Below, one piece after another: positions 1 through 40,313 of a stretch of DNA of 43,811 bases. This stretch comes from a virus: the IMG/VR virus record IMGVR_UViG_3300050033_000050, positions 1 through 43,811 of that record, one strand, 5' to 3'. A program made the position numbers and the translations under genes. How positions within the stretch are numbered: the stretch's first letter is position 1; each line of letters opens with the position of its first letter. Below the pieces are notes generated by a model, which made no database searches, was not told where the DNA came from, and worked only from the letters and a program-made list of their open reading frames with translations.

Positions 1-57
1 CTGTTATTCCATCCAAATCCGCCACCTCCCACAAAAATAACGCCTCGCTGGGCGGGA

Positions 58-1146
58 TCATTCCTGCTCATCTTTGGGCAGTCGCCTGAATGCCAGCGTC
101 CCCATCAACTTGCGCCGCAGGTTATAACTGTTGCAATGCTTGAGCAGTCCCAGGTAACTCTGGACGCTGGCGTTCACGTCCTCAAATCCAACTTCGCCCC
201 AGGTGTAGGCTCGCTGCAGGTACTTGAGTCTCCGCCGCATCTTCCTTGCCGTGGACTTTCGCAGCTTTTTGTGCGTGCTCCATATCCGGTACCCGACCCA
301 GTCGATCCCCTGGTCTATCGTCCTGATGCAGGACTTGCCATTCAGCGTCAGGCGCAGGCGCTCTGCCAGGAATGTCTGAATCTCCTGCTTGATCTCACGC
401 AGGTAAGCCTTGTCCCGGTGTAGGATCAGGGAGTCATCCATGTAACGCATGTAACGCTTGACATGCAGATCGTGCTTCACGAACTGATCCAGCTCGTTCA
501 GGTATAGGTTGGCGAACATCTGGGACGTCAGGTTGCCAATCGGCATGCCCACTCCCGGAACCCGCACTCCGGTGAACCCGCTGTCGTCCAGGTCCACTCC
601 GAACTTGATATGCTCGCACCTGATGATGGTCTCCAGGAGCCAGAGCAGATCCTTGTCGGCGATCAGGCGCCGCAGGATGCCCACCAGCACGTCGTGATCG
701 ACCCGGTAGAAATACTTGGACACGTCCATCTTCAGCGCGTAAATCCGACCCTGTTTGCTATCCAGGTCTCGCAGCCAATATTGCAACCGGTCAGCCGCTT
801 TGTGCGCTCCGTACCCAACCCGGCAGGCGTAGGTGTCTGAGATATAGCGCCGATCCAGGGGCGGATTCAGCACCCGGTAGATCGCCCACTGGACAACCCT
901 GTCCTTAAACGGCAGCGCCATGATCAGGCGCTTCTTTGGTTCATAAACGAAAAACTCCCGGTAGCTGCCGACCCGGTAGGTCTTCTCTCTCAACTCTTCC
1001 TGGATGGCGACCAGGCTGGCCTCAAGGTTGTGGGTGAACGCCAGCACCTCATTCCGGTATCGCTTGCCCTTCCTGGCCTCTCCGTAGGCTGCAAGCAGGT
1101 TGTCGAAGTCGCATATGGCAGGATAAAGATTCTTGAGCCTCTTCAA
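58..1146 (-). CDS. DGR reverse transcriptase
   Basis: Reverse transcriptase of a diversity-generating retroelement. It copies the template-repeat RNA into cDNA with adenine-specific errors, and the cDNA then replaces the variable repeat. Seen: motif A with MDVSKYF (catalytic Asp about residue 141), the DGR hallmark IGNLTSQ (about 203-209) in place of the QG motif of other RTs, and the YMDD box (about 235-238) with flanking RYM/SLIL, followed by a basic thumb region. The frame stays open upstream to an ATG at 1377, but that extension would translate the template repeat. I place the start at TTG 1146 because AGAGG lies 7 nt upstream and LKRLKNLYPAICDFDNLL resembles the N-terminus of DGR RTs. 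The resulting 362 residues are normal for the family. It is last in the target-avd-TR-RT cassette. Confidence in family is very high, in start moderate. Confidence 0.96.
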   Translation of the reverse strand: MKRLKNLYPAICDFDNLLAAYGEARKGKRYRNEVLAFTHNLEASLVAIQEELREKTYRVGSYREFFVYEPKKRLIMALPFKDRVVQWAIYRVLNPPLDRRYISDTYACRVGYGAHKAADRLQYWLRDLDSKQGRIYALKMDVSKYFYRVDHDVLVGILRRLIADKDLLWLLETIIRCEHIKFGVDLDDSGFTGVRVPGVGMPIGNLTSQMFANLYLNELDQFVKHDLHVKRYMRYMDDSLILHRDKAYLREIKQEIQTFLAERLRLTLNGKSCIRTIDQGIDWVGYRIWSTHKKLRKSTARKMRRRLKYLQRAYTWGEVGFEDVNASVQSYLGLLKHCNSYNLRRKLMGTLAFRRLPKDEQE

Positions 1147-1310
1147 TATGTCGCCTCTTAGAAAATAATGCCGGGCGTGGCACCCTTCACCCTCGGCTAC
1201 TAGCTGCCTTCCCGGCGATTCAGTTTTTTGCCCGCAGGCAGGGAGAATGGCCCCTTTTTCCTGAGCGCTGGACGCCACCCCGTGGGGCAGCGCCTTCTGG
1301 CTGTAGGAGG

Positions 1311-1423
1311 AAGCCGCCCGGAACCCGATGTTGCTATTCGTATTCGTCCGAACATTATTCAGGTTCAGATTGAACACCCCGGCATTCGTGCCGTTGTTCC
1401 AATTGCCACCCCGGATCGGGAGC
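1311..1423 (-). repeat. DGR template repeat (TR)
   Basis: 113-bp template repeat between avd and the RT gene, paired with the variable repeat at 1847-1959 (constant offset of 536). Read in the target frame on the minus strand it holds eleven AAC/AAT codons, the typical DGR design that lets A-mutagenesis reach many amino acids without making stops. Fifteen positions differ from the variable repeat and every one is an A on this strand. Identity ends sharply at both edges. The 164 bp between the TR and the RT start (1147-1310) contain no convincing gene and probably form the structured spacer of the TR RNA, as in BPP-1. Confidence 0.96.
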
Positions 1424-1447
1424 CGCGCTGGCCACTCCCCTAAACTT

Positions 1448-1783
1448 TCAGCGGGTGGTAGTTTTGAACCACCCGCCGATCATCTTGCCGATCTCCGTCA
1501 GATGCTTGGCCCAGTTCTCGTATTTGTTGACCGGCAGAAATCCCAGGTCTTTAGCCAGGCGGACATAATATCTCAGGGTCTCCAGGCTGATGTCGGCGTC
1601 CTGGATGGTGTTCTTTTTGTGGTACCGTTTGTTCGCCCGGACGATCTCTCTGAGCAGGTCAAACATCACCTGCTTGGTCTCTGCCGCCAGCGTGTGCTTC
1701 TCGCTCTTGGGATACTGCTTGATGCAGATGTAGCCGTACTGGATCATGTCGTAGGTCTTCTGGAGCAGCTTTAATTCTTCCAT
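1448..1783 (-). CDS. avd: DGR accessory variability determinant (Avd)
   Basis: Small (111 aa), basic, mostly helical protein between the target gene and the template repeat, the position of avd in the BPP-1 DGR. Family members form a barrel of four-helix bundles (related to 23S rRNA intervening-sequence proteins), bind the RT and the TR RNA, and are required for cDNA synthesis. Seen: helix-forming segments around residues 2-20, 30-55 and 65-82, with clusters of Lys/Arg (RANKRYHKKN) suited to RNA binding, and the ending WAKHLTEIGKMIGGWFK, which fits the usual C-terminal helix. The ATG is preceded by GGAGGCAA, part of which lies in the 3' arm of the DGR hairpin. Identification rests on sequence pattern plus context. 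Confidence 0.9.
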   Translation of the reverse strand: MEELKLLQKTYDMIQYGYICIKQYPKSEKHTLAAETKQVMFDLLREIVRANKRYHKKNTIQDADISLETLRYYVRLAKDLGFLPVNKYENWAKHLTEIGKMIGGWFKTTTR

Positions 1784-1792
1784 TTGCCTCCA

Positions 1793-1810
1793 GGCGGGCT
1801 ATCGCCCGCC
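1793..1810 (-). other. DGR target-site hairpin (IMH-associated)
   Basis: Perfect 7-bp inverted repeat GGCGGGC/GCCCGCC around a 4-nt loop that reads GATA on the minus strand. It begins 36 bp past the 3' end of the variable repeat, after the target stop codon. DGR target sites are known to carry hairpin/cruciform structures downstream of the VR with GC stems of about 7-10 bp and GRNA tetraloops that promote retrohoming; GATA fits GRNA. No T-run follows, so it does not look like a terminator. Confidence 0.85.
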
Positions 1811-1838
1811 CGACAGATTACAGGGATCAGATCCCAGA

Positions 1839-3014
1839 TTAGCAAAAAGCCGCCCGGAACCCGATGTAGCTAGCCGTAGCCGTCCGAACACTATTCAGGT
1901 TCAGAGCGAACACCCCGGCACTCGTGCCGTCGCCCCAACGGCCACCCCGGACCGGGAGCACCTCACCCACGTTGAGCATCCAGAATCCGTCCGCGCCGTG
2001 ACTCGTGTCTATCGGTGCCAAGGCGAGTAGTTTCAGCAGGTTGGGCACCGTCACGCCGCCAGCCACAGCAAGGGTCTCAAATGTGTTGCCGGACACGAAG
2101 TTGCTGGCATTAGCCTGGGTAGACGTGTTAATTCGTGCCGCCCCGCTAGATGCTGGCGCAGCTACAAAATCGTATTTCAGCGTCAGCGCGGTGCCCGGAG
2201 CAACCAGGGTGCCCGCCTGAAGGATCGCCTGCCAGGCCGCGCTGCCGGAACTCTGATCCTTAGACCCGTCGGCAGCGTTGTTGTCCTGCAACACCTGGAT
2301 TTCTCCGGCATTGATCCGCATACCGCCAACCCATTCCCAGACGTCGCCGTTCAGGTCGTAGATCCCGAATGGGGTTCCGTCGTGCGACCAGGCCAGAGGA
2401 CCGGAACCGGTCAGAGTCCTGCCGACGTTCCCAGATTCAAACTCACTGGGAGTAGCTGCTTCTGACGCGATGTTAATGTCGCTGCCGTAGTTGTTGTTGC
2501 CCCGCGGCCAGAAGGGGCCACGTGTCTTGCAGATGAGGGCAATACAAGCCCACTCCGCGTTTGTCATCAGGTGCCAGCCGGTCCCCTTCTGTGTGCAGGC
2601 CAGCCGCGCATTGTCATAGTTAATGCCGTTGCCCGGGTCCTGCATCCGCAGGCTGAAAGCTCTCAGCGTCGTGGTTGCGCCGGTGTAGGCGCACAGGTAC
2701 TTGGCAACGTAGATCACCGGCTTCGTAGCACCGTTGACCGTGAAAGCCGGATGGGGTGCCGTCGCCCCCCCGGAGAGCAACTGCGATTGCATCAGTAAGG
2801 GTACGACAACCATAATAGACGGGTTGCCCTGGTCATCGTACATGACCGTGTTTCTGCCGAAACTGGCCTGCTGGATGGCCTGTCTCCACTGCTCCTGCTC
2901 AGCGGCGACCGTGATCACGCCGTTCCGCAAGAACCGCTCTGTGAGTTGGTTCTCGACGCTGAAAATTGCTTCTGCCAATTGAGCTTGGCTGTATGGTCCT
3001 GGGATGATTTTCAT
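1839..3014 (-). CDS. DGR target protein, C-type lectin/FGE-like fold, predicted receptor-binding tail protein
   Basis: 391-residue protein diversified by the DGR. The C-terminal two thirds look like a formylglycine-generating-enzyme/C-type-lectin domain: GTGWHLMTNAEWACIAL, then LNGDVWEWVGG, then GGRWGDGT and the ending GFRAA, all typical of DGR targets such as Mtd. The variable repeat covers the last about 40 residues; ten residues differ from the template translation (for example Asn to Arg, Gly, Asp, Ser, Ala and Tyr). The N-terminal 100 residues resemble a tail-attachment part. The ATG has GGGAGGT upstream. The gene ends the tail operon, next to fibre and baseplate genes, so it probably binds the host receptor. 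That role is inferred; the target status is directly visible. Confidence 0.93.
   Translation of the reverse strand: MKIIPGPYSQAQLAEAIFSVENQLTERFLRNGVITVAAEQEQWRQAIQQASFGRNTVMYDDQGNPSIMVVVPLLMQSQLLSGGATAPHPAFTVNGATKPVIYVAKYLCAYTGATTTLRAFSLRMQDPGNGINYDNARLACTQKGTGWHLMTNAEWACIALICKTRGPFWPRGNNNYGSDINIASEAATPSEFESGNVGRTLTGSGPLAWSHDGTPFGIYDLNGDVWEWVGGMRINAGEIQVLQDNNAADGSKDQSSGSAAWQAILQAGTLVAPGTALTLKYDFVAAPASSGAARINTSTQANASNFVSGNTFETLAVAGGVTVPNLLKLLALAPIDTSHGADGFWMLNVGEVLPVRGGRWGDGTSAGVFALNLNSVRTATASYIGFRAAFC
1847..1959 (-). repeat. DGR variable repeat (VR)
   Basis: 113-bp copy of the template repeat, inside the target gene and ending 8 bp before its stop codon. It differs from the TR at 15 sites, all template adenines: A to G, C or T in the coding strand. 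Nine of the eleven template Asn codons and one Ile codon are altered. The last 17 bp at the 3' side (bases encoding GFRAA) are GC-rich and identical, as expected for the initiation-of-mutagenic-homing segment; beyond it VR reads TTTGC where TR reads CCTCC. Confidence 0.96.
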
Positions 3015-3015
3015 G

Positions 3016-3231
3016 TCACATACCTCCCATTGGCGGCATTGGCGGCATCACCGGCAGCGGCCATAGATAAGCGTAGTTCCGCCGCAGGTCGCCCTCAAAC
3101 GTCGGCAGGTAATTCAGCGCATCTGCGTCTGTCCCTTTGACGTCGATCTGCCCCTGCAGGTCTATGTCCTCGTCGGCGAAGCTGACGCTGAGCGTCACTG
3201 TCCCCTGGTTGTCAGTCAATTCGTAGGTCAC
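3016..3231 (-). CDS. Small tail-associated protein, unknown function
   Basis: 71 residues, GTG start overlapping the stop of the fibre gene by 4 nt (GTGA), so translation is probably coupled. The N-terminus (TYELTDNQGTVTLSVSFADEDIDLQGQIDVKG) looks like a small beta-rich domain. The C-terminus is Met/Pro/Gly-rich (PVMPPMPPMGGM). The target gene's Shine-Dalgarno lies in its last codons. It sits between fibre and DGR target and may be an adaptor or chaperone for either; nothing in the sequence proves this. Confidence 0.75.
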   Translation of the reverse strand: MTYELTDNQGTVTLSVSFADEDIDLQGQIDVKGTDADALNYLPTFEGDLRRNYAYLWPLPVMPPMPPMGGM

Positions 3232-4058
3232 TCTTCCATCACCGCCATATTAAGACTTGCGCCCTCGCTCACGGCGTAAATTGGGATGTAATTAGCCGGG
3301 TTAAAATCCTGCGACCATGCCGCCCCCGGTTCGACCGGGAAGCCGGTCTGTTGGTTCACGGTTGACGACCCTACCCGCATCCGCAGGGCCTGGTCCTCGT
3401 TCTTGATCGTCAACTGGCAGCGTGTTGTCAGCGCCGATGCTCCGGCGAACACCTCAGCCGGTGTTGCGGTCACGGTCTTGACGCCGGTGACCGGAGCTTG
3501 GGTGATCGGGTTGACCAGACTGATCAAATACGCCAACCTGGCTAGGGTTGACCCGGATGAGTTGGCTGCATCTCCCGTGCTCCCGAGGCCAGGGATGGCA
3601 GTCGTGCCATTCAGGTAGCCCAGAATGGTGCTCGATACGTAGTTTTTTATATCCTTTAGCTTCGCGTTGGCTGAGCCTGTGGCGCTGGCCGCGTCGGCCT
3701 GTGCTCCAATGCCGGGCTGAATCGTACCCGTCTCATAAGCGTAAATGGTGTTGGTCAGGTAGTTGATCAAATACGCCAACCTGGCTAGGGTTGACCCGGA
3801 TGAGTTGGCTGCATCGGCTTCTTGCCCCAGGTCCTGGACCAGGTTGGCCAGCCTCGCCAAGGCGTCCCCGCTTGCGCTCTGCCCGTCGCTGACGAGGCCC
3901 AGTGCTGCGGCCAGGGCTGTCAACTGGGACGTGGTACTCCCGTATATCGTGTGCAGCGTAGTGTCCAGGGTGTCCATGTTCCCATTGAGAACGCCGATGT
4001 CGGCAGTGTCGGTCAGGTCCGGCTTAACCAGGCCGTAGTTCGAAGTTGGTGTTGACAT
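3228..4058 (-). CDS. Tail fibre-like protein
   Basis: 276 residues. The opening NYGLVKPDLTDTADIGVLNGNMDTLD is the kind of baseplate-proximal head seen in many Bacillota phage fibres. The middle is a low-complexity, Ala/Ser/Thr-rich region with repeated units containing DAANSSGSTLARLAYLI (twice nearly exactly) and related copies (ADAASATGSANAKLKDI), suggesting a fibrous trimer. The C-terminal about 80 residues (from TQAPVTGVKTVTATPAEVF) look like a beta-sandwich tip. The ATG has a strong AAGGAGG 7 nt upstream. It lies directly after XkdU and two genes before the DGR target, so it may carry the target protein. Confidence 0.85.
   Translation of the reverse strand: MSTPTSNYGLVKPDLTDTADIGVLNGNMDTLDTTLHTIYGSTTSQLTALAAALGLVSDGQSASGDALARLANLVQDLGQEADAANSSGSTLARLAYLINYLTNTIYAYETGTIQPGIGAQADAASATGSANAKLKDIKNYVSSTILGYLNGTTAIPGLGSTGDAANSSGSTLARLAYLISLVNPITQAPVTGVKTVTATPAEVFAGASALTTRCQLTIKNEDQALRMRVGSSTVNQQTGFPVEPGAAWSQDFNPANYIPIYAVSEGASLNMAVMEE
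3521..3572. repeat. 52-bp direct repeat, copy 1, in the fibre gene
   Basis: Identical to 3764-3815 (243-bp spacing, in frame). Encodes the fibre motif ending ...GSTLARLAYLI. Exact DNA identity, beyond the protein repeat, suggests recent duplication or gene conversion. Confidence 0.9.
3764..3815. repeat. 52-bp direct repeat, copy 2, in the fibre gene
   Basis: Second copy of the 52-bp exact repeat at 3521-3572. Unequal recombination between the copies would delete or add 81 codons without changing frame, altering fibre length. Confidence 0.9.
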
Positions 4059-4070
4059 GGTTGCGCCTCC

Positions 4071-4628
4071 TTAAATTGCCCTAGTCTTCAGGGCACCCCA
4101 GGTGCTGGTCTTTACCCCAGCCCAGGTTAAAGCCTCGACGTTGCCCCAGGTGGTATAAGTAAATGCGTAATTCACCGCCAAATGCGCTGGCTTGATCTGC
4201 TCGATCACTGCCTGTAGGTCGGCCAGGTTCGGCGGTATTCCCAGCGGGTCGACGAACGTCACTATGAAGGAATATGTCTCCGGGTGGTTGGCGACGCTCG
4301 CTGAGCCGTCCACGTAAGCCTCGGCCACATTTTGGATCATGGTGATGGTCACGGTGCCGATGCCCCGGAGCTTCGATTTGATAACTGATCGGCGCTGGTC
4401 GTCCGGCTTCCCGGCCATGGTCGTGATTCCCAGCGTGCTTTCCCAGATGCTCAATCCCCAGGTGGCCGTGTCCACAAAAAACTGGTTCAGGACGTCGTTC
4501 AGAGCGGCCTTGAGGCTGTCGAACTCCATCCCGTCCGCCTGCATGGCCGCCTGCATCACGATCGACGTGGCGTAGTACGGCGGAATGTAGCCCATCATCT
4601 CCTGCCCTTTGGGGCTGGTCACGCTCAT
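4071..4628 (-). CDS. Baseplate/tail protein, XkdU/YmfQ (DUF2313)-like
   Basis: 185 residues from the ATG (MSVTSPKG) that overlaps the stop of the baseplate J gene by 4 nt (ATGA). The frame is open further upstream, but that part is a shadow of the J gene. Features of the Mu gp48/XkdU family: an N-terminal helical part with MGYIPPYYATSIVMQAAMQADGMEF, a central FVDTATWGLSIWESTLGI segment, then a ferredoxin-like C-terminal part ending with IEQIKPAHLAVNYAFTY. The family contributes to baseplate wedge assembly next to the J protein. Family assignment is from pattern and gene order. Confidence 0.88.
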   Translation of the reverse strand: MSVTSPKGQEMMGYIPPYYATSIVMQAAMQADGMEFDSLKAALNDVLNQFFVDTATWGLSIWESTLGITTMAGKPDDQRRSVIKSKLRGIGTVTITMIQNVAEAYVDGSASVANHPETYSFIVTFVDPLGIPPNLADLQAVIEQIKPAHLAVNYAFTYTTWGNVEALTWAGVKTSTWGALKTRAI

Positions 4629-5773
4629 GAGAATGTCACCGTCCCCGGCACGGCCGCTTGCCCAAGGGCGATGGCAATGTTGGCCGTCCCCCCGTTGGCC
4701 AGCAGGTTGGCGTAGTCCGTCACCCCGGCCTGGTTGAGTAGCTGGGAGCCGATCTGCGCCCATTTAATGGAGACGTTCTGGGTCGGCGGATTGTTTGTCG
4801 GGTCGGTCACAAATGCCTGCCCGGCCAGGTAACTGGTCAGGGCGGCCACGAAGGCCGTTTTGATGTCTGCCTCGGCCACCGTGCCGTCCATGGTCAGACT
4901 GGCCGTCACGTTGATGGGTACCGCTGTGGCAGCCGTCACTGTCACTGCCGCCCCGATCGGGGCCTCGCCGTCTCCGGTGGGCAGGCCCCCCGGGCAGATT
5001 GCCTCCTGGGCTGCAGCCACGATGACGACGCTGGCCGGTAGGTTGTCCGCCCCGAGCAGCACCACCTTGACCGTGCCGTTCCCGTTCCAGAGCGGGATCA
5101 CCTGGGCGTCTCCCACGCCAGGGATTGCCATGGCCCATTGTTTGTAGTCCGCCCTGTTCCCGCTCGTGCCCGGATTCTGGACCTTGGCCAGGTATCTTGC
5201 CAGTAGGGCGGTGTCGCTCTCCTCGTCCGTGCCATCTCCGTTCATGGCGGTGTTGGATATCGAGGCGACGCCCGGTATCGGGACCGACAGTACGGTGATC
5301 GTCCCGAGCGCCACGTTCCCGGCTGCCCCGGCCACCACGGCGGTGATCGGCACGGTTATGCTGCCGCCTGCCGGGATGGTCACAGTAGCGTCGGTGGTGA
5401 ACTCGACCGAGGCCGTGCTGGTGGCGTTGTCCGCCGGTGTGCAGACCACCGTCTCGGTGGCGATGGGCGTTCCTGCGGTGCCCGTGATGGTCAGTGTTTC
5501 GGTGGCGCAGACAGCCGCTTTCCTCGGGGTCAGGCCGACCTCACCACATCGCAGATCCAGGTAGGCTCCGTAGGTGGTCTCGGCGAATCCGTACTTGAGC
5601 ACCTGCTGCGCCCAGATCGCTGCTGTCGCCAGTTCGATGGAGGCCGGGGTGACAACGTCCCAGACAAATGATCCCTCTGTCGTGTCCACCCCGGCAGGGA
5701 CGTTCCCCAGCATACGCTGAAGGATGACGTCCTGGGTCTGGTCCGCCAGGTATTCCGGTAGTGCGTCGCTCAT
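4625..5773 (-). CDS. Baseplate J-like protein (XkdT / Mu gp47 family)
   Basis: 382-residue baseplate wedge protein, equivalent to P2 J, Mu gp47 and XkdT. Typical features: N-terminal SFVWDVVTPASIELA segment, LRCGEVGLTPRKAA, Gly/Thr-rich beta domain at about 95-165, then DEESDTALLARYLAKVQNPGTSGNRADYKQWAMAIPGV (a strong family signature), and a C-terminal domain with WAQIGSQLLNQAGVTDYANL. It overlaps XkdS upstream and XkdU downstream by 4 nt each, so the three are translationally coupled. Confidence 0.95.
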   Translation of the reverse strand: MSDALPEYLADQTQDVILQRMLGNVPAGVDTTEGSFVWDVVTPASIELATAAIWAQQVLKYGFAETTYGAYLDLRCGEVGLTPRKAAVCATETLTITGTAGTPIATETVVCTPADNATSTASVEFTTDATVTIPAGGSITVPITAVVAGAAGNVALGTITVLSVPIPGVASISNTAMNGDGTDEESDTALLARYLAKVQNPGTSGNRADYKQWAMAIPGVGDAQVIPLWNGNGTVKVVLLGADNLPASVVIVAAAQEAICPGGLPTGDGEAPIGAAVTVTAATAVPINVTASLTMDGTVAEADIKTAFVAALTSYLAGQAFVTDPTNNPPTQNVSIKWAQIGSQLLNQAGVTDYANLLANGGTANIAIALGQAAVPGTVTFS

Positions 5774-6228
5774 GACATTGTCACCTCGCTTAAAATGGTC
5801 GCAGTCTCTGCCTTGACGCTCGTGATCTGGCAGGTGAAATAACAGGTAGCGCCGTCCCAGGCGAACGCGAAGGCGTCGACCTTGGCCGTCCTGGGGTCGA
5901 CCATCAGGGTCTCCGTCACAATCCGCTGGATCTCGCTTTCGTTGGCCGCCCTTGTCAGGTTCCTGCGGATCAGGTCGTCAAAATCCTGCCCGTAGATCCG
6001 GCTGTAGACAGGGTATTTGTACCTCAAGGTCAGGAGCGCCTTAAGACCCCAATCTGTCCAGGCCTGGACGCCCTGTGTGGGCACGCCCTGCCCGGTCGCC
6101 GTGGTCACGAAGTCGCCTGCCGTAAAATCAAAATTCCAGCTTGTCCCGAAGTTCACCCGGGAGGCTGGAGTCACTGTCGTCTCCGGCGTGGCCGCCGGTA
6201 CGTCTGTCGGGTAGATATTAACCATCAT
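5770..6228 (-). CDS. Baseplate protein, XkdS (DUF2634)/gp25-like
   Basis: 152 residues. Resembles XkdS/DUF2634 proteins, which share the gp25-type baseplate wedge fold: central VQAWTDWGLKALLTLRYKYPVYSRIYGQDFDDLI followed by ANESEIQRIVTETLMVDPRTAKVDAFAF, which is the conserved part. The start overlaps the end of the XkdR gene by 11 nt and the stop overlaps the J gene. Acts at the baseplate-sheath junction in related phages. Confidence 0.9.
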   Translation of the reverse strand: MMVNIYPTDVPAATPETTVTPASRVNFGTSWNFDFTAGDFVTTATGQGVPTQGVQAWTDWGLKALLTLRYKYPVYSRIYGQDFDDLIRRNLTRAANESEIQRIVTETLMVDPRTAKVDAFAFAWDGATCYFTCQITSVKAETATILSEVTMS

Positions 6229-6628
6229 TTGCCACCACCTTGCAGAGTACTACGACGCTCAGTCCGTTGTTGACAGGTATGCAAAGCACCCGGTCTCCGG
6301 CCTTGAGGTCAGGTTTAATCTCGACGTGTACCTGGTCAATCGTTGCCGGGCCGAACGCCCAGGCTGCTGCTCCGGTTACTTGGCCGCCCTTCGAGTCCAG
6401 GAGGCCGCTCTGGCTGCCGCCCATGGCGAAGGCCGGTATGTCCAGTTTGGCCTGCCAATCGGCCACCAGGTAACTGCTGATCTCGTGCTTGAAGGTGTCC
6501 AGTTGCACGCCCCCGGCTGCCGTGATGGTGCCCAGTTCGGCCGGGATGCCCTTCAGGTTCTTGTCGACGTGCTTCTTGATGTGCCCGGTCACTGATTCGG
6601 CCAGATCCTTATACGGATTGGTTACCAT
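6218..6628 (-). CDS. Baseplate protein, XkdR (DUF2577)-like
   Basis: 136 residues from ATG 6628 (MVTNPYKDLAESVTGHIKK). An upstream in-frame ATG at 6652 has no ribosome site, while GGAGG lies 13 nt before 6628. Family features: the N-terminal amphipathic helix, PAELGTITAAGGVQLDTF, and the C-terminal LKAGDRVLCIPVNNGLSVVVLCKV, an OB-like beta segment found in DUF2577 proteins. It overlaps the hub gene by 20 nt. The family sits between hub (XkdQ) and gp25-like (XkdS) in PBSX-type clusters, exactly as here. Confidence 0.87.
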   Translation of the reverse strand: MVTNPYKDLAESVTGHIKKHVDKNLKGIPAELGTITAAGGVQLDTFKHEISSYLVADWQAKLDIPAFAMGGSQSGLLDSKGGQVTGAAAWAFGPATIDQVHVEIKPDLKAGDRVLCIPVNNGLSVVVLCKVVANDG

Positions 6629-7619
6629 TAGTATAATATTTCCTCCGCACATAGTCCGACGTCGCCATTTGCACGGTCATATGGCCTGGTGATCCCAGCG
6701 TGTGGGAGACGTCCGTCGCTATCAGGTTCATGCCGTTCAGCACGACAGCGTCCCCTGCCCGCATGATGTTGATGTCCGGGCTGGTCACCGTGAAGGTCTC
6801 CAGAAGGCCGGTCAGCAGGGCGGTCGCTGCCGCCTTGGCCTCCGCCGTGGTGGTGATCTTGCTGTTCTGGACGAGCTTCTGGAGCGTGCCAAGTTGCGCC
6901 GTCTGGGCGCTGGCAATGGCCAGGACGGGCGTCTTCGTCCCAGAGGTCTCCTTGCCTAAAACCTTGACCTGGGTGATCGCTCCTTCGAGCGTCCGTAACT
7001 GGTCGATCCCCTCGACGTTCTCCAGCACCCAGACCGTGGTGTTGCTGCCGATCACGAACAGTCGCAGGCCGTTCTCCGTGATTCGGGGACGGTACATGGT
7101 GCCCCCCTTCATGCTCGTCTCCTGGATGTCCGAGAGGAGCATGCTGTAAACCGTCCCCCGGTGCGAGGCTCCGGTGCCGGTCGGGGCCAGGAGCACCCCC
7201 GTGCCCGGTATGGTGTCCAGAGGGATGCCCCAATCCGAGGCGTACTGCTTCAGGCGCTGGTCGGCCGTCTGCCCGGCTGGGAACAGGTACTCGTCCTCTG
7301 TTTTCTCCAGGTAGATGGTCTTGTCGTAGACGGTCGCCGTCAGGTGTTTGACGCCCTTGTTCTGGCTGTTAATCTCCCAGACCACGCCCGGGTGCAGCAG
7401 GTAGACCATGGTCGTGCCGCCCAGCGGCACGCCGCTCACTCTGAATGCCTGGCCGTTGGCGATACCCGGGAAGTCGTCGGTGACCACCATCTTGATCTCA
7501 GCCTTGTAGGCGATGTTGCTCAATGAGTCCGTCAGTATGGCGCTCTCGACGATGTTTTTTAGGTAATACTGGTTATTGAGGATAAACTCGTAGTCCTGCT
7601 CGCCAAATGTCACGGCCAT
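6609..7619 (-). CDS. Baseplate hub protein, XkdQ/YqbQ-like
   Basis: 336 residues, related to XkdQ and distantly to P2 gpD/T4 gp27 hub proteins. Seen: N-terminal YYLKNIVESAILTDSLSNIAYKAEIKM, then GQAFRVSGVPLGG and VVWEINSQNKGVKHLTATVYDKTIYLEKTEDEYLF, the segment most conserved in XkdQ; then RLKQYASDWGIP. Near the C-terminus PDINIMRAGDAVVLNG matches the end of the hub domain. ATG shares one base with the stop of the XkdP gene (TGATG). Forms the central tail hub with the LysM protein before it. Confidence 0.9.
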   Translation of the reverse strand: MAVTFGEQDYEFILNNQYYLKNIVESAILTDSLSNIAYKAEIKMVVTDDFPGIANGQAFRVSGVPLGGTTMVYLLHPGVVWEINSQNKGVKHLTATVYDKTIYLEKTEDEYLFPAGQTADQRLKQYASDWGIPLDTIPGTGVLLAPTGTGASHRGTVYSMLLSDIQETSMKGGTMYRPRITENGLRLFVIGSNTTVWVLENVEGIDQLRTLEGAITQVKVLGKETSGTKTPVLAIASAQTAQLGTLQKLVQNSKITTTAEAKAAATALLTGLLETFTVTSPDINIMRAGDAVVLNGMNLIATDVSHTLGSPGHMTVQMATSDYVRRKYYTNGNQSV

Positions 7620-8269
7620 CAGGGCATCACCAGAGCCATTCCCGGTTTAATCAGGTTCGGGTTGGGGCCGATGGTGCTTTGGTTGGCCGTGTAAATGGCC
7701 TGCCACTTCGAGCCGTCTCCGAGACACATCTTGGCGATAATAAAGAGGCTGTCCCCGGACTTGACCGTGTAGGTCTTGGGGACAGGCTTTGTGTCCGGCC
7801 GGGTCTGGAGCGCCGAGACATTGACGGCCGCTGCCGCCTGCACCTGCGCCTGGGTCCGGACGGTAATCGGGTTCCACGTCCGTAGCGTCAGGTCGTAGTA
7901 AACGTCGCCCGGTTCGCCGCCCTGGAAGGTGCTTGTGTGAGCGTCAACCAGCACCAGGGTGTTGACGACGGTGGTGGTGATGATCAGCCGGACCGGCTTC
8001 TTGCTCACCGTCCAGGTGGTCAGTTGCTGCATCGCCTGCTGCGGGTCCGGGATGCTGGCGTACTGGCAATATTCGCTGTCGTAGGCGATCGGCAGAAAGC
8101 TGCTGAGGCTGATCTCCGTGACCTTGGTGCCGATCGTGAAGTCCGCCTCTCCCATGTTGAGGATCGTGACCGTGTCCAGCAGCTTCTCCCGCTTGATGAC
8201 GATCTTGTCGGGGTTGACCGGCAGTTGGAAGGTCACGCCTGCCGTGTCGTCAACCAGGTAGATGTCCAT
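7619..8269 (-). CDS. LysM-domain baseplate protein, XkdP-like
   Basis: 216 residues from ATG 8269 (MDIYLVDDTAGVTFQLPVNP); the longer open frame reads through the terminator at 8291-8315. The N-terminal about 150 residues are the XkdP part (FQLPVNPDKIVIKREKLLDTVTILNMGEADF, LSSFLPIAYDSEYCQY). A LysM domain follows (KTYTVKSGDSLFIIAKMCLGDGSKWQAIYTAN...LIKPGMALVMP), which binds peptidoglycan or stabilises the hub. A terminator just before the start implies its own promoter or antitermination. Confidence 0.92.
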   Translation of the reverse strand: MDIYLVDDTAGVTFQLPVNPDKIVIKREKLLDTVTILNMGEADFTIGTKVTEISLSSFLPIAYDSEYCQYASIPDPQQAMQQLTTWTVSKKPVRLIITTTVVNTLVLVDAHTSTFQGGEPGDVYYDLTLRTWNPITVRTQAQVQAAAAVNVSALQTRPDTKPVPKTYTVKSGDSLFIIAKMCLGDGSKWQAIYTANQSTIGPNPNLIKPGMALVMP

Positions 8270-8290
8270 GCCCTCACCCCGCTCTCTGGG

Positions 8291-8315
8291 CAAAAAAATA
8301 ACCCCTTTCGGGGTT
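8291..8315 (-). terminator. Intrinsic terminator inside the tail operon
   Basis: On the minus strand: AACCCC, GAAA loop, GGGGTT, then A and seven T. A textbook rho-independent terminator in the 70 bp between the small membrane protein gene and the XkdP gene. Confidence 0.85.
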
Positions 8316-8339
8316 GTAACTGCGCTTGTGTTTAGTTGC

Positions 8340-8600
8340 TTACTTGCCGCCGATGCCGATCTTGATCTGGCCGCCGTTCCTTCGCTTCTCCCACCAGACC
8401 ATAGTTCCAAGCGCTGCGGCCAGGACGGCTGCGACGATCACAATGGACAGACCGTTCTGGGCAAACCAGCTCCATACCCCTTGCAGGACGCTCGCCGCCA
8501 CGCTGATCACCATAATCCACAGGAACGCCTTGGCGCTCCACTTGAAAACCTTAATGCCGAAGATCCCCAAAATTACCCCGATTGCAATGATCACTATCAT
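8340..8600 (-). CDS. Small membrane protein in the tail operon, unknown
   Basis: 86 residues with three hydrophobic stretches (about 1-19, 24-46 and 48-70) and a basic tail with WEKRRNGG. Good ribosome site (GGAGGCGAGGAC then ATG). No motif identifies a function. Small size and membrane segments would fit a holin or an envelope-acting protein, but it lies between tape measure and LysM protein rather than beside an endolysin, and a terminator follows directly. Could instead be an assembly or superinfection-exclusion factor. Confidence 0.75.
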   Translation of the reverse strand: MIVIIAIGVILGIFGIKVFKWSAKAFLWIMVISVAASVLQGVWSWFAQNGLSIVIVAAVLAAALGTMVWWEKRRNGGQIKIGIGGK

Positions 8601-8629
8601 GTCCTCGCCTCCTGCCCCACAGTATGGGA

Positions 8630-11170
8630 CTAGGCTGCGAGATTAGCAATGGCCTCCCGGAACTTTTGGGCGGTGATCGTTGCCACTTGCTCCGCCATCT
8701 CGTCCAGGTCGCCGGTGCCGTTGACCTGCGCCTGCAGAGCGCCGTCCATGTAGATGTTGATTACGTGGCCGCTGCTGCCGTTGCCCCCCCCCAACCCCAG
8801 CCGTTGTCCGGCCTGCTGGAAGAGCGAGAACGAGTTGCTACTCCGGGAGAGCGGGATGATTGCCTCTGGCCCCGCTTCGGCCACCAGCCCCAGGTGTGGC
8901 GTGCTGAAGATGCCGCCCGTGGCGTGTTTTTTGGGTGTCGGTGCCACTGCTGTGACTCCGGCCTGGTAGCCTGATTCCGTCCCGCCGATGATTCCTTCGG
9001 CCTGACCTACCACCCACTGACCTGCCGCACCAAGGGTGCCCTTTGCTTTGTCAAATCCGGCGACAAGGCCGCCGACCATTGATTTCCCGAAGCCCTCAAA
9101 GGCCAGCACAACCTGCCCGATTGCCGAGGCGATCCTGTTAGGGATGGTCAGTATCCAGGTGGCAATCTCTCCTGGTAAGGCGGCCACCCAAGCGACGGCC
9201 CTGTTCTTGGCGTTCTGAAACCAGGTATCAAAGTCTGCTGCGATCTGGGTTAGCCAATTGACGGCCACGTTCTTGGTCTGCTCCAACCACGATCCGGCTT
9301 CGCCCGCGAGCGCGGCGATGGCAGCCACGGCCTTGTTCTTGGCTTGCGTGAACCAGGAGGCAAACTCGCCCGGCAGATCTCTGAGTTTGGTAACGCTTTG
9401 TCTAACAATGTAGCCGATCTGCTCCGGCAGGGTGCTCATCTCGGTGCCGATCAGCTTCCCTGGCAGGCTCTTTAACGATGCCTTGGCCTGGTCGAGCGGC
9501 GAAACGACCGCTGGCCCACTGTACGCGCCAGATGTCGGCAGGTGCCCGGTCTTTGCCTTATAGGTGTTCTGGTATTGCTGCTTGTCGTATTGGTCGGAAG
9601 ACAGGCCTCCGTGCTGCAGCTTGAAGACCTCTTGGCTGGCCCATGATCCTGCCGTCTGGGCTGGTTTCCCGACGTTGGTGTAGCGGATGATGGCGTATGC
9701 CAGCGCCGCTGCTGCCGGCCCCCAGACGAACGGGTTGGCCAGAACGGCGACGAAGGCCATCCCCATGGATGTCCCCGCTACCGCCTCGGTTCCCACTACC
9801 GCCTCGGTTCCCGCTACCGCTTCTGGTGCCGCTGCCTCTGCTGCCGGGGCGATCATCCCCTTGGCCGCGTTAATCGCGGCCACGATGAGCTTGACGAGCA
9901 TGCCTCCGCCCAGCATGTAGAACAGCCCTCCGGTCACCACCGTCCCGCCGATGTTGCCGTGGAGCAGATCCTTGAAGGCGTCTCCGACGGTCAGCACCAG
10001 CGCCTTGCCCCACGCCTTTATGGCGATCTCCGCCAGTTGGGTGAATAGGGATATTATCCTGCTGCCTCCCGGGCCGCTGACCCAGGCGTTCAGGGCGTCC
10101 AGGGCGTCGTCGGCGATCATGGTTAACTTGCCGCCTAGTGAGGCGTTCTGGAATGCCGGGTTGTTGGTAAGTTGGTTGACGAAGTTAAAGAAAGCGGTCG
10201 CCGCCTGGTCTAGCCCCTTCGCTGCGGTCTTGCCGACGCCCTCGAAGAAAGCCTGGATCTGCGGTTCGTACTGCTTGATGAAACTTACGATTTTCCCCAT
10301 AATCTTTAATAATTCCGGGGCGATGGCGTTCACAAACGGTAAGAAGGCGTCGGCAAAGCCGTACCCCAGTTGCTGGGTCTGCATCTGGAGCGCCTTCATG
10401 TTTTGGGTCAATTCGTGCGCCTGGATGGGGTCGATCCCGATGGCCTGCACCTTGCTGGCGATCTTGGCGTTCTCCGTGTAGTCCTTGAGCAGCGGGATCA
10501 TCTGCTGCCCCCTCATCCCTAGCACCTGGGCGACGAAATCCTGATCCTTGCCCGCTGCCGTCGCTGCAGCGTATCCCTTAGCCAGGTTGGCCAGTTGGTC
10601 GTTGTAGGACAATGTCTTGCCGCTGGCGTCCTTCAGTGCCACCCCGAACTGCGCCAGCCCCTTGGTGGTAGCGTTACCGCTTTTCCCGGCGGTGTCCACG
10701 GCCTTGTCCAGCCGGATCATGGTGCTGGTGAACAGCGTACTGCTTGTCCCCGACAGCGTCAGTACTTTGTTCATGTCCGCCGCTTGCTGTGTGGACATGT
10801 GCATTTTGGCGGCCATCTCGTAGAGCGAATTCCCGTAATCGGCCGCGCCCTTGGTCAAGGCAAACAGCCCGAAGGCGGACGCTGCGACGCCGATGATGGC
10901 CATGGGGTTGCTCAGCAAGCCGAAGACGCTGCTCGCCTTGCTCTTGAGGTTGTCCAGGCCGCTGCCGATCTTCTTGAGCGGCGCGCTGATCTTGTCCTGG
11001 ATGGTGACGGCCGGGTTGACCTTGATTTTGTTCAGGGTGTTCATCTGCTTCTCGGCGTTGCCGGTGAACTTCTCGACCGTTGCCCCTGCCTTGGCCATGC
11101 CCTCGTCCACGCCCGAGGTGTTTGCCCCGATGGTAATTATTACATTTTTGCCTTCCTCGTTCTCTGCCAC
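8630..11170 (-). CDS. Tail tape measure protein
   Basis: 846 residues, the longest gene here; sets tail length and is likely ejected with the DNA. Starts at GTG 11170 behind GGGAGGTGAT. The N-terminal 120 residues are helical/coiled (VDEGMAKAGATVEKFTGNAEKQMNTLNKI), followed by PMAIIGVAASAFGLFALTKGA and the conserved MSTQQAADMNKVLTLSG...YNDQLANLA region seen in Xkd/P2-type tape measures. A hydrophobic Ala/Gly-rich central part (about 390-510) includes an 18-bp repeat. Later come about 20-residue Trp-containing repeats (WFTQAKNKAVAAIAAL, WLEQTKNVAVNWLTQI, WFQNAKNRAVAWVAAL), typical of tape measures. It ends with HATGGIFSTPHLGLVAEAGPEAIIPLS, a common C-terminal signature. Confidence 0.95.
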   Translation of the reverse strand: MAENEEGKNVIITIGANTSGVDEGMAKAGATVEKFTGNAEKQMNTLNKIKVNPAVTIQDKISAPLKKIGSGLDNLKSKASSVFGLLSNPMAIIGVAASAFGLFALTKGAADYGNSLYEMAAKMHMSTQQAADMNKVLTLSGTSSTLFTSTMIRLDKAVDTAGKSGNATTKGLAQFGVALKDASGKTLSYNDQLANLAKGYAAATAAGKDQDFVAQVLGMRGQQMIPLLKDYTENAKIASKVQAIGIDPIQAHELTQNMKALQMQTQQLGYGFADAFLPFVNAIAPELLKIMGKIVSFIKQYEPQIQAFFEGVGKTAAKGLDQAATAFFNFVNQLTNNPAFQNASLGGKLTMIADDALDALNAWVSGPGGSRIISLFTQLAEIAIKAWGKALVLTVGDAFKDLLHGNIGGTVVTGGLFYMLGGGMLVKLIVAAINAAKGMIAPAAEAAAPEAVAGTEAVVGTEAVAGTSMGMAFVAVLANPFVWGPAAAALAYAIIRYTNVGKPAQTAGSWASQEVFKLQHGGLSSDQYDKQQYQNTYKAKTGHLPTSGAYSGPAVVSPLDQAKASLKSLPGKLIGTEMSTLPEQIGYIVRQSVTKLRDLPGEFASWFTQAKNKAVAAIAALAGEAGSWLEQTKNVAVNWLTQIAADFDTWFQNAKNRAVAWVAALPGEIATWILTIPNRIASAIGQVVLAFEGFGKSMVGGLVAGFDKAKGTLGAAGQWVVGQAEGIIGGTESGYQAGVTAVAPTPKKHATGGIFSTPHLGLVAEAGPEAIIPLSRSSNSFSLFQQAGQRLGLGGGNGSSGHVINIYMDGALQAQVNGTGDLDEMAEQVATITAQKFREAIANLAA
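9777..9830. repeat. 18-bp tandem repeat within the tape measure gene
   Basis: Two near-perfect 18-bp units plus a diverged third; encodes the repeated (E/T)AVAGT / EAVVGT stretch in the hydrophobic middle of the tape measure protein. In-frame expansion or loss would change tape length. Confidence 0.75.
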
Positions 11171-29946: not shown

Positions 29947-31233
29947 TTATGCTGTCGCCCCCCTCTTCTCCTCGTGCTCGATCACCTTGGCGAACACGCT
30001 GGCCGTGCTGCCGTGCGCCGCCATTATCCGGTCATGCGCCATCATGCCGTACTCCGGCTTCAGGTCGATGTAGATGCTGTCCCTGCCTTCTTGCTCGGCT
30101 ACCAGGCTGACTGTCCCTGCTCCGCCGAGCGGGTCCAGGACGGTACCGCCTTTTGGGCACCCGGCTAAAAGGCAGATCCTTGCCAGCGCCGGTGGGAACA
30201 CCGCGAAATGCGCCCCCTTGAACTGCGCCGTGTTTATGTGCCAAACGCTGCGCCGGTTCTTGCCGGTCAGGTCGAAGCTGGCCGGGAAGTTCAGGCAGTA
30301 CGGCTCCTTGCTATCATAATGCTTGCCCTTGCGGATCTTGCTGCGGTAGGCGACGTCGCTGCCGGTGGCCAGCGGCTCCTTGATCGCCTCTGTGTCGTAG
30401 TAGTAGTCGTGCCCTTTCCAGAGGTTGCGCCTCGTCCAGAACTCCCGGAGCAGCCTGGCCGTCACTGGTGGGTAGTCGACCGTGAGGCCGGTGCGCTTGT
30501 GTGTCCAGACATGATCCGCCCTCGGATGCCGGTCTGTCCGCTGCTTCCGTGGGTGCGTCCAGAACAGGGTCTTGCTGCTCTTGGTCAGTAGGAATACCTG
30601 CTCGTGGTTGCGTGTTGTCCTGTCCTGGACGCTCTCTGGCATCGGGTTGCCCTTCTCCCAGATGTTCTCGGCCCTCAGGTGCCAGCCGTCATCTCTCAGG
30701 GCGAAGGCCATCATCCAGGGCAGGCCGATCAGGTCTTTCGGCTTGAGTCCGGTCGGAACCCGGCTGCCTCGGTTATTGCCGACGTTGCGCTCCCTGCTAT
30801 TCGATATACCGTTGAGCGCCTGGCTGCCTCTGCTGCCTGCATAACTGTCGCCCATGTTCAACCAGCAGGTTCCGTCCTTGCGGAGCACCCGGCGGATCTC
30901 CCGGAACACCCGGGTCAGGTTCGCCACGTACTCCTGCGGGGTCGGCTCCTGGCCGATCTGTCGGTCAATACAGAGAGCGCCGCACTTGTGGCAATACCGG
31001 CGGTCGAGCCGGTCCTGCGCTGCGGCGTGGCTGGATTGTGCCCCTTGGGTCTGCTTCTGCCCACCCCAGCGCCTGACGGCGTGATCGCAGCCCGGATCTC
31101 CGCCTTCCCATGTGCCGGTGCTGTAGTCTCGAAGCCCCCAGTACGGTGGGCTGGTGATCACGCAGTGAACGCTCTCATCGGGCAGGGTCGCCAGGGCGTC
31201 GAGGGCGTCCCCGATCAGCAGGGTGTGGTTCAT
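29947..31233 (-). CDS. Site-specific DNA methyltransferase (SPPY type)
   Basis: 428 residues. MNHTLLIGDALDALATLPDESVHCVITSPPYWGLRDY: motif IV SPPY at 28-31, typical of N4-cytosine/N6-adenine beta-class enzymes. A CHKCGALC metal site follows at about 78-85. The C-terminal part carries VFPPALARICLLAGCPKGGTVLDPLGGAGTVSLVAEQEGRDSIYIDL, with SAM-binding motif I LDPLGGAGT. No restriction endonuclease lies beside it, so it probably protects phage DNA from host restriction. Coupled (ATGA) to the fragment before it. Confidence 0.92.
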   Translation of the reverse strand: MNHTLLIGDALDALATLPDESVHCVITSPPYWGLRDYSTGTWEGGDPGCDHAVRRWGGQKQTQGAQSSHAAAQDRLDRRYCHKCGALCIDRQIGQEPTPQEYVANLTRVFREIRRVLRKDGTCWLNMGDSYAGSRGSQALNGISNSRERNVGNNRGSRVPTGLKPKDLIGLPWMMAFALRDDGWHLRAENIWEKGNPMPESVQDRTTRNHEQVFLLTKSSKTLFWTHPRKQRTDRHPRADHVWTHKRTGLTVDYPPVTARLLREFWTRRNLWKGHDYYYDTEAIKEPLATGSDVAYRSKIRKGKHYDSKEPYCLNFPASFDLTGKNRRSVWHINTAQFKGAHFAVFPPALARICLLAGCPKGGTVLDPLGGAGTVSLVAEQEGRDSIYIDLKPEYGMMAHDRIMAAHGSTASVFAKVIEHEEKRGATA

Positions 31234-31454
31234 GCCGTCGCCCCCTTTGGGCGGCCAACTAAGAGGTATTCCCGGTTCTTGCTCCGGTGCTCCTCGCTGG
31301 CCATGCTCACCATGTGCTTGTATTTTATCTCGTGCGCCTCGACGGTGCGGTACTTGCTCATCATGCTGACCAGGTCGCCCAGGCAGTCATGTTTGCCTCC
31401 GGCGTTGCCCATGCTCAGTATCCAGGTCGGGATATGCTGGGCGTGCTCGAACAC
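31230..31454 (-). pseudogene. C-terminal part of a D12-class adenine methyltransferase, after an in-frame amber codon
   Basis: 74 codons in the same frame as the gene at 31455-32306, separated from it only by one TAG. FEHAQHIPTWILSMGNAGG...KYRTVEAHEIKYKHM...NREYLLVGRP is what D12-class (Dam-like) enzymes have after DPPY. It may be translated separately from GTG 31454, which follows the TAG directly, or by read-through, giving 358 residues together. Otherwise the gene is broken. Confidence 0.8.
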
Positions 31455-32306
31455 CTAGCCCAGCAGCTTCTGGCCGTCCTCGGCGCTGAACTCACTCTGC
31501 TGTCGCTCGATCTTCTTGCCAATCAGGATCTCGTCCAGCGTCCGGTAGATGTCCTCGTAACTGGATGTCCCGGCGTAGGGCGGGTCGAAATATACGACGT
31601 CTGCCTGGATGTGGTCCAGGAAGTCCTTGACGTCGCCCTGGTGCGCCTCGTTGGCCTGGCCGTTGTCGATGATGCCCTCGTTGAGCAGATGTGCCGTGTG
31701 CCAGAGTAGGTCGGTGATCGGCATCATCGCCATCTGAATCGTGCGGCCGTAGGTGCGCTGCTTGATGAACTCGATCCGTCCCTCGGCAAACGGCCGGTTG
31801 AAGGCGTTAGGGCTGCTGAACTTGGAAAGCGGCCGGAGCGCCAGGATGAACTTGACCAGCAGCAGCTTGTAGAGCCAGTGCTTGCCTGCGTCCTGCGGAA
31901 TCGTCCCGATGTACGCCAGGGCCTGGTCCAGGAAGTCAGCGTGCTTTTCGGTGAAGACCTCCGGTACGAAATTCTCCCGGACAAAGCCGACCGATGCCCA
32001 CTGTCCGTTCAGGGCGTCTATTGCCCCCGGCTCGTGCTGGGTTAGTCGGCAGATGTCCAGGAAGTTTATGTGCTCTTTACTGTTCTCGATCAGCGCCTTG
32101 CCGATCAGGACGCTGCGGTCTGCCAGGTCGTTGCATAGCACCCGGTAGCCCAGCGCCTTGGCGTAAAGGCTCACCGATCCGCCACCCAGGAAAGCATCGG
32201 CAAACACCGGGGCGTCGCTTGCCCCCGGTGTCACCGAAAATATCGCTTTTACCAGCTTTCGTTTGCCGCCGAAATATGCGGGCAGGGCGTTGAAGAACTT
32301 GTTCAT
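31455..32306 (-). CDS. D12-class N6-adenine DNA methyltransferase, N-terminal part
   Basis: 283 residues ending at TAG 31455-31457. Motif X ALPAYFGGKRKLV, motif I FADAFLGGGS (about 35-44), and motif IV DPPY at 241-244 within VVYFDPPYAGTSSYEDIYRTLDEILIG. The catalytic and SAM sites are complete, but the C-terminal quarter of the domain lies beyond the amber codon. The two pieces could reassemble, be joined by suppression, or be inactive. Anti-restriction role likely if active. Confidence 0.88.
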   Translation of the reverse strand: MNKFFNALPAYFGGKRKLVKAIFSVTPGASDAPVFADAFLGGGSVSLYAKALGYRVLCNDLADRSVLIGKALIENSKEHINFLDICRLTQHEPGAIDALNGQWASVGFVRENFVPEVFTEKHADFLDQALAYIGTIPQDAGKHWLYKLLLVKFILALRPLSKFSSPNAFNRPFAEGRIEFIKQRTYGRTIQMAMMPITDLLWHTAHLLNEGIIDNGQANEAHQGDVKDFLDHIQADVVYFDPPYAGTSSYEDIYRTLDEILIGKKIERQQSEFSAEDGQKLLG

Positions 32307-39351: not shown

Positions 39352-40245
39352 CTAGACCAGCGCCGCTGCCAGCCTCTCCAACTCGTCCCGCTTGTGCAGC
39401 ACATTCAGCCATCGCCCCGGGATTGCCTCGGCTCCGTAGTAGGCTCCGGCCAGGCCCCCGGCGACCGCTCCGATGGTGTCGGCGTCGCCGCCCAGGTTGA
39501 CCGCCTCGACCACGCATGCCTCAAAGGTCTCGGTGTGCAACCAAACCCAAAGGGCGCAGGCCAGTGTGTCCAGGCTGTAGCCGGTCGGGCGCAAGCCATC
39601 CCCGGCGGCGTTCGTCAGCCAGGTCCTCTCAAGCGGGTTGACCAGCGCCGCCTCCGCTCCGTCCAGCAGCGTTGTTTTCGCTGTTCTGCTTGTGTCTTCC
39701 GCCGCCAGGCGTACCAGGATATTATAAAAGGCGCTGCTCCAGAAGGCTATTGATGCCGGGTGCGTCATCCTCGTCACCGCGATACTACGCTCGACCATGG
39801 TCTCCTGCCGCCAACTCTTGACGAGGGACAGCGGCAGCGTCCGCATCAGTGCTCCGTTCCCGGCTGCCCGGTCGCCCAGGCGGTACATCTGGCGGCCCAC
39901 CTTTGCCCAGCAGCCGCATTCCTTGTACATTTCCATGGCCATGACGGTGGTGTTGCCGACGTCGATCGGCCTGCTGTCGTACCATTTAATAAAGCGCCTG
40001 CCGATCTGGTCGATCGGGCTGGCCGGGGATGCCAGCACCCCCCATCCGACGGCCAGCATCATCTCAGTGTCGTCGGTGACCTGCCCGGGGCTGACGTTCA
40101 GCCAGCCCCCGCCGATCATGTCCACCACCGTGCCGTGCCTGGTCTGAATCTGCTCTCTCGTCATATTCTCCAGCGGTGCCCCCAGGGCGTCCCCACATGC
40201 CAGTCCCAGTATCGCCCCTCTGACAGCGTTCTCTCTTGTCTTCAT
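39352..40245 (-). CDS. ADP-ribosylglycohydrolase
   Basis: 297 residues from ATG 40245 (AAAGGGGTACACC upstream). Family signatures: AILGLACGDALGAPLE, TDDTEM (57-62, metal ligands), AGNGALMR (about 128-135) and NLGGDADTIGAVAGGLAGAYYG (250-271, second metal site). All catalytic Asp/Thr ligands seem present. Removes ADP-ribose from Arg or other acceptors, or acts in NAD(+)-derived signalling. Lies in the early region behind three 22-bp-spaced boxes. The same phage encodes a putative transferase at 19693-20841. Confidence 0.93.
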   Translation of the reverse strand: MKTRENAVRGAILGLACGDALGAPLENMTREQIQTRHGTVVDMIGGGWLNVSPGQVTDDTEMMLAVGWGVLASPASPIDQIGRRFIKWYDSRPIDVGNTTVMAMEMYKECGCWAKVGRQMYRLGDRAAGNGALMRTLPLSLVKSWRQETMVERSIAVTRMTHPASIAFWSSAFYNILVRLAAEDTSRTAKTTLLDGAEAALVNPLERTWLTNAAGDGLRPTGYSLDTLACALWVWLHTETFEACVVEAVNLGGDADTIGAVAGGLAGAYYGAEAIPGRWLNVLHKRDELERLAAALV

Positions 40246-40261
40246 GGTGTACCCCTTTCTC

Positions 40262-40313
40262 TGCGCGCTTTTTTCATGTTGTTTGCGCGCTGTATTCGTA
40301 TTTCCTGCGCGCT
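40262..40313. repeat. Three TGCGCGCT boxes with exact 22-bp period
   Basis: TGCGCGCT at 40262, 40284 and 40306, filling the 68-bp gap between the DHH gene and the ADP-ribosylglycohydrolase gene. Followed by T-rich, partly similar sequence (TTTTTTC, GTATTCG, TTATTCG). The spacing, two DNA turns, suggests cooperative protein binding. Confidence 0.7.

Follow-up and report, generated by a model that had tools for sequence, protein, structure and literature searches.

Organization of the Locus

The DNA analyzed here (the window) is a 43,811-base IMG/VR virus record in which positions 58-3014 of the minus strand are occupied by a complete diversity-generating retroelement (DGR). Read along that strand, the element comprises a target gene that ends in a variable repeat (VR), the accessory variability determinant avd, a template repeat (TR), a spacer, and a reverse transcriptase (RT) gene, which is the order known as mtd-avd-TR-brt in phage BPP-1. 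A previous reading based on the sequence alone had proposed a complete DGR in BPP-1 order, and every part that it listed (target with VR, avd, TR, and RT) was recovered where it had been placed. Two further parts had been overlooked, namely a hairpin with a GATA loop and a structured spacer RNA, both of which are present. No second VR, remote target, or further TR/VR copy was found within the 43.8-kb record, and a promoter scan gave no result.

The element lies directly downstream of structural genes on the minus strand, as the sequence-only reading had also stated. Genes for a Mu Gp48-like protein, a Baseplate J protein, and a sheath initiator (4071-6228, in XkdU/T/S order) precede a fibre-like ORF (3228-4058) and a 71-aa ORF (3016-3231) that is placed between the latter and the target gene. 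Since a tail sheath and LysM/XkdP-like, YqbQ/XkdQ-like, and XkdS/T-like proteins are encoded in order, the phage can be assigned to the Xkd/PBSX-type contractile-tail phages, in agreement with the Xkd-type myovirus proposed earlier. The fibre-like gene contains an exact 52-bp direct repeat (3521-3572 and 3764-3815), and recombination between the two copies could change its length. Elsewhere in the window, two DNA methyltransferases (N6_N4_Mtase and D12 class) and an ADP-ribosylglycohydrolase are encoded at 29947-32306 and 39352-40359, which are perhaps counter-defence genes.

Reverse Transcriptase and Avd

The RT gene (58-1146, minus strand) encodes 362 aa from a TTG start and belongs to RVT_1 and to the PHROG RT family phrog_1423 (2.3e-143). 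Among solved structures, the RT of PDB 8UB7 matched it best (1.4e-50), ranking ahead of group II intron RTs. A start at position 1377 had been suggested previously, but the TTG at 1146, which is common to the relatives, is most likely the true one. The 439-aa frame running from 1377, inside the TR, is open by chance, given that all tested relatives (54-74% RT identity) present a stop between TR and RT.

The avd gene (1448-1783, minus strand) encodes 111 aa matching Pfam bAvd (PF22296; 2.6e-36) and the PHROG family "Avd protein of DGR" (phrog_3206; 2.6e-41), and it scored above the cut-off of the NCBIfam model DivGenRetAVD (NF033474). A sequence comparison of Avd with the PDB returned no match.

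A gene of this kind could also belong to a group II intron or a retron lying beside a duplicated gene end and operating without mutagenic homing, and the top NCBIfam model for the RT was indeed group_II_RT_mat, although its 115 bits fell below the cut-off of 300. The chance that this is the case was considered vanishingly small. The RT carries the motifs IGNLTSQ and YMDD, as in BPP-1, and lacks the QG...SP and YADD motifs of the group II intron control RTs. In a phylogenetic tree it grouped with 30 other DGR RTs, including that of BPP-1, and was separated from the RTs of four group II introns with a support of 100/100, in a topology where the branches of BPP-1 and of the group II RTs are long and their exact places less sure. 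Within the DGR RTs, BPP-1 falls on a branch other than that of the window. The presence of avd, a TR, and an adenine-specific VR also argues against an intron or a retron. The phrog_1423 match and the absence of clustering with group II introns thus place the enzyme among the DGR RTs, as had been anticipated from the sequence.

Template Repeat, Variable Repeat, and Hairpin

The TR (1311-1423, minus strand) is a non-coding segment of 113 bp with 28 adenines, against 134 bp in BPP-1, and it is identical in two sibling contigs, L003 and L007, discussed below. The VR (1847-1959, minus strand), also of 113 bp, corresponds to the C-terminal end of the target. The two repeats differ at 15 of the 113 bp, and all 15 mismatches lie at TR adenines. 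Translation of the TR gives LPIRGGNWNNGTNAGVFNLNLNNVRTNTNSNIGFRAA and that of the VR gives LPVRGGRWGDGTSAGVFALNLNSVRTATASYIGFRAA, with the amino-acid changes falling mainly on asparagine (AAY) codons. At their GC-rich 3′ end (IMH), TR and VR are identical: CGGGTTCCGGGCGGCTT.

Beyond the VR and the target stop codon, the hairpin GGCGGGC(GATA)GCCCGCC is found at 1793-1810 (minus strand). Guo et al. 2011 (PMC3240598) described hairpins located 4-34 bp past phage VRs, whose stems measure 7-10 bp and whose loops are of the GRNA type, and demonstrated that such a hairpin structure is required in BPP-1. The window hairpin matches these GRNA-loop hairpins, and its distance of 36 nt from the last TR/VR base lies just beyond the 4-34 range of the other phages (PMC3240598). 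Similar hairpins with a different stem sequence follow the VR in most close relatives. The GATA-loop structure is a candidate target-recognition hairpin or cruciform, and the hairpin rule, like the RT motifs, is common to BPP-1 and the window DGR.

Evidence of Activity in Nature

The comparison with contig L003, which comes from another metagenome record and covers window positions 1-5919, revealed 20 differences in 5,919 bp, of which 19 are inside the VR and one lies outside, at 5792. If the differences were evenly spread, 19 of 20 would fall in the 113-bp VR with a probability of about 4e-32. Moreover, 18 of the 19 VR differences are at TR adenines (P of about 7e-13 for random placing within the VR), with no change in TR, avd, or RT. 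Of the 28 TR adenines, 22 are altered in one or both VRs, and the AAY codons are altered at positions 1 and 2 only. The sole VR difference off a TR adenine is at window position 1946, where the difference to L003 is G to A and the TR has a guanine.

The VR of the third contig, L007, corresponds to the window allele, so that only two VR alleles occur among the three contigs. A search of viral contigs with a DNA pattern holding N at each TR adenine matched only the two known sibling contigs. The same bias was observed in other pairs of near-identical relatives, with 16 VR changes at adenines and one elsewhere in L012/L011, and 14 and none, respectively, in L036/L037. Population variation at the VR, which had been put forward as the check on a functional element, is thus seen on a small scale between sibling contigs in which RT and avd are intact.

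These data bear on whether the element could be a decayed DGR whose parts remain, whose retrohoming has stopped, and whose TR/VR differences are old. Several non-adenine TR/VR mismatches, as drift would give, are found in the relatives L004, L009, L010, and L047, whose DGRs, unlike that of the window, look as if they were idle. All 15 TR/VR mismatches of the window lie at adenines, and two contigs that are 99.98% identical outside the VR nevertheless differ at 19 sites within it. The RT, avd, TR, hairpin, and spacer RNA are all intact, which also speaks against decay, and this explanation was judged very improbable. The DGR is in good working order and was recently active. Altogether, the window element was assigned, with a probability of about 97%, to the complete and active phage DGRs working by mutagenic retrohoming.

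The Spacer RNA Corresponds to Rfam RT-14

The whole spacer between TR and RT covers positions 1147-1310, and a structured RNA matching the full Rfam model RT-14 (RF02921) was detected at 1171-1313 on the minus strand, scoring 61.6 bits where the gathering score is 48.1. Rfam names this family solely by its reverse-transcriptase neighbour. In most relatives above about 45% RT identity, RT-14 is found at the same place, a few bases from the TR end, whereas for most of those near 40% RT identity no spacer family was matched, with E-values of up to 0.01 admitted.

Covariation was assessed on a MAFFT alignment of the spacers of 20 relatives, using the Rfam structure. The structure pairs in 73% of the cells, and for 31 of the 33 pairs both positions vary somewhere among the 20 spacers. 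The covariation score was 0.491, compared with 0.209 for shuffles and 0.109-0.151 for slid structures. To avoid selection by RT, RT-14 alone was searched for in 398 genomes from the phylum to which Desulfoscipio belongs. It occurred in 11 of them, always inside a DGR; one corresponded to a Desulfoscipio element already found by its RT, and in each of the other ten the RNA was preceded by avd and followed by a DGR-type RT. An A-biased TR/VR pair was present in eight of these ten, the TR ending no more than 4 bases from where RT-14 starts. Since RT-14 was found only inside DGRs in this search, it is identified as the spacer RNA of DGRs in this clade.

One element among the relatives, L118 (contig C59 of G226), shows two RT-14 copies ahead of one RT (6480-6591, 7260-7400, and 7725-7990). 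There, an A-rich TR-like repeat with RT-14 is followed by an apparently A-mutated VR-like copy that likewise carries RT-14. The element also contains the 3′ end of the target a second time, identical over 112 bp. This DGR may have duplicated or overwritten its own template.

It was also considered whether the BPP-1 spacer, of 144 nt, and RT-14 could form a single Rfam family, which was rejected: the BPP-1 spacer matches RF03022 (Phage_DGR) and not RT-14. We consider it likely that RT-14 serves a large clade of DGRs in Xkd-type phages as spacer or priming RNA, and that it is the counterpart of the BPP-1 Phage_DGR RNA, having a covarying fold of its own that adjoins the TR directly. Spacer priming of cDNA synthesis is known from work on BPP-1, and by analogy the RT-14 spacer would prime cDNA synthesis here. 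A literature search on RT-14 or RF02921, which did not cover Weinberg et al. 2017, found no paper linking RT-14 to DGR spacers. That study probably introduced the RT-14 family, and the identity of RT-14 as a DGR spacer may already be known.

The Target Is a Homologue of TaqVP

The target gene (1839-3014, minus strand) encodes a protein of 391 aa with the VR at its C-terminus. It matched PF03781 (2.3e-6) and, as its best PHROG, family 2889 (3.5e-113), whose function is not annotated. A comparison with solved structures by sequence retrieved TaqVP (PDB 5VF4; 6.8e-65), the variable protein of a Thermus aquaticus prophage DGR. An AlphaFold2 model (pLDDT 88.8) superimposed on 5VF4 with a Z score of 50.5 and an rmsd of 1.8 Å over 351 residues (42% identity), and resembled more distantly the FGE-type enzymes, TvpA, and Mtd, the likeness to the BPP-1 Mtd fold being distant (Z of about 10.5). 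The suggested structure prediction of the target thus yielded a C-type-lectin fold, and the target is a homologue of a solved DGR variable protein of the same family. Both proteins present an FGE-type C-type lectin with a C-terminal VR, and the window target has an extra N-terminal helical part, with residues 1-36 outside the TaqVP alignment. The Thermus aquaticus DGR belongs to another phage and host, and it lies in a prophage and has a BPP-1-like layout (PMC6328139).

Encoded right after the baseplate genes, the target is probably a receptor-binding protein of the tail tip; judging from this position and from BPP-1, its variation would alter receptor binding and host range, as the sequence-only reading had proposed. 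It is also conceivable, although rather unlikely in our view, that an active DGR diversifies some other displayed protein, in which case variation would affect something besides adsorption. The target's best PHROG has no assigned function, and TaqVP itself is characterized without a natural ligand in the description consulted (PMC6328139). Against this stand the gene position directly after the baseplate and fibre genes, which is that of mtd in BPP-1, and the weaker match of the target to a PHROG tail protein (4e-14). In a survey of thousands of DGRs, moreover, tail structure proteins made up most targets of the viral DGR clades (PMC8144416).

Related Phages and Host

The RT relatives are found in Bacillota, with 70% identity in Desulfoscipio, 57% in Selenomonas, and 58% in a Bacillus phage, which suggests a host in this phylum. 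The latter, BalMu-1 (NC_030945), also carries an RT-14 spacer and shares with the window the order XkdP/Q/S/T, target, avd, TR, RT, and lysis genes, but its target is only 35% identical to that of the window. By its name BalMu-1 is a Mu-like phage, while in the sibling contig L003 a ParA-type gene is found past the lysis genes instead. In L003, which extends beyond window position 1, the region past the RT (5859-10049) encodes an N-acetylmuramoyl-L-alanine amidase followed by the ParA-type ATPase, and this phage may persist as a prophage in plasmid-like form.

Two other observations were made in relatives. In L004, the nearest one, 22 matched repeats make up a CRISPR array just past the DGR (6262-7748), which is either phage-borne or host flank. 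In L018, a DGR-bearing Selenomonas phage, a type II hammerhead ribozyme was matched at 9437-9502.

Proposed Mechanism and Significance

In the mechanism proposed for this element, transcription would cover the TR together with the spacer that follows, and the spacer would fold into the conserved RT-14 RNA, which, together with Avd and the RT, would prime and direct cDNA synthesis over the TR. The RT would misincorporate at template adenines, and the mutated cDNA would take the place of the VR, with which the target gene ends, aided by the GC-rich 3′ sequence that TR and VR have in common and by the hairpin just past the VR. The C-type-lectin face of the target would thereby acquire new surface residues. 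The roles ascribed to the spacer in priming and to the hairpin are inferred, as are the position of the target on the tail tip and a change of receptor or host.

The window cassette is another example of a known system and does not represent a new kind. As a DGR it is unusually clean: it is complete, two near-identical contigs prove its natural activity, and the fold of its target is a solved one. RT-14, so far an RNA family that took its name from a neighbouring gene alone, becomes assignable to DGR spacers and would offer a search handle for DGRs, and it provides a covarying structure that may be compared with the BPP-1 spacer RNA on how cDNA synthesis is primed.
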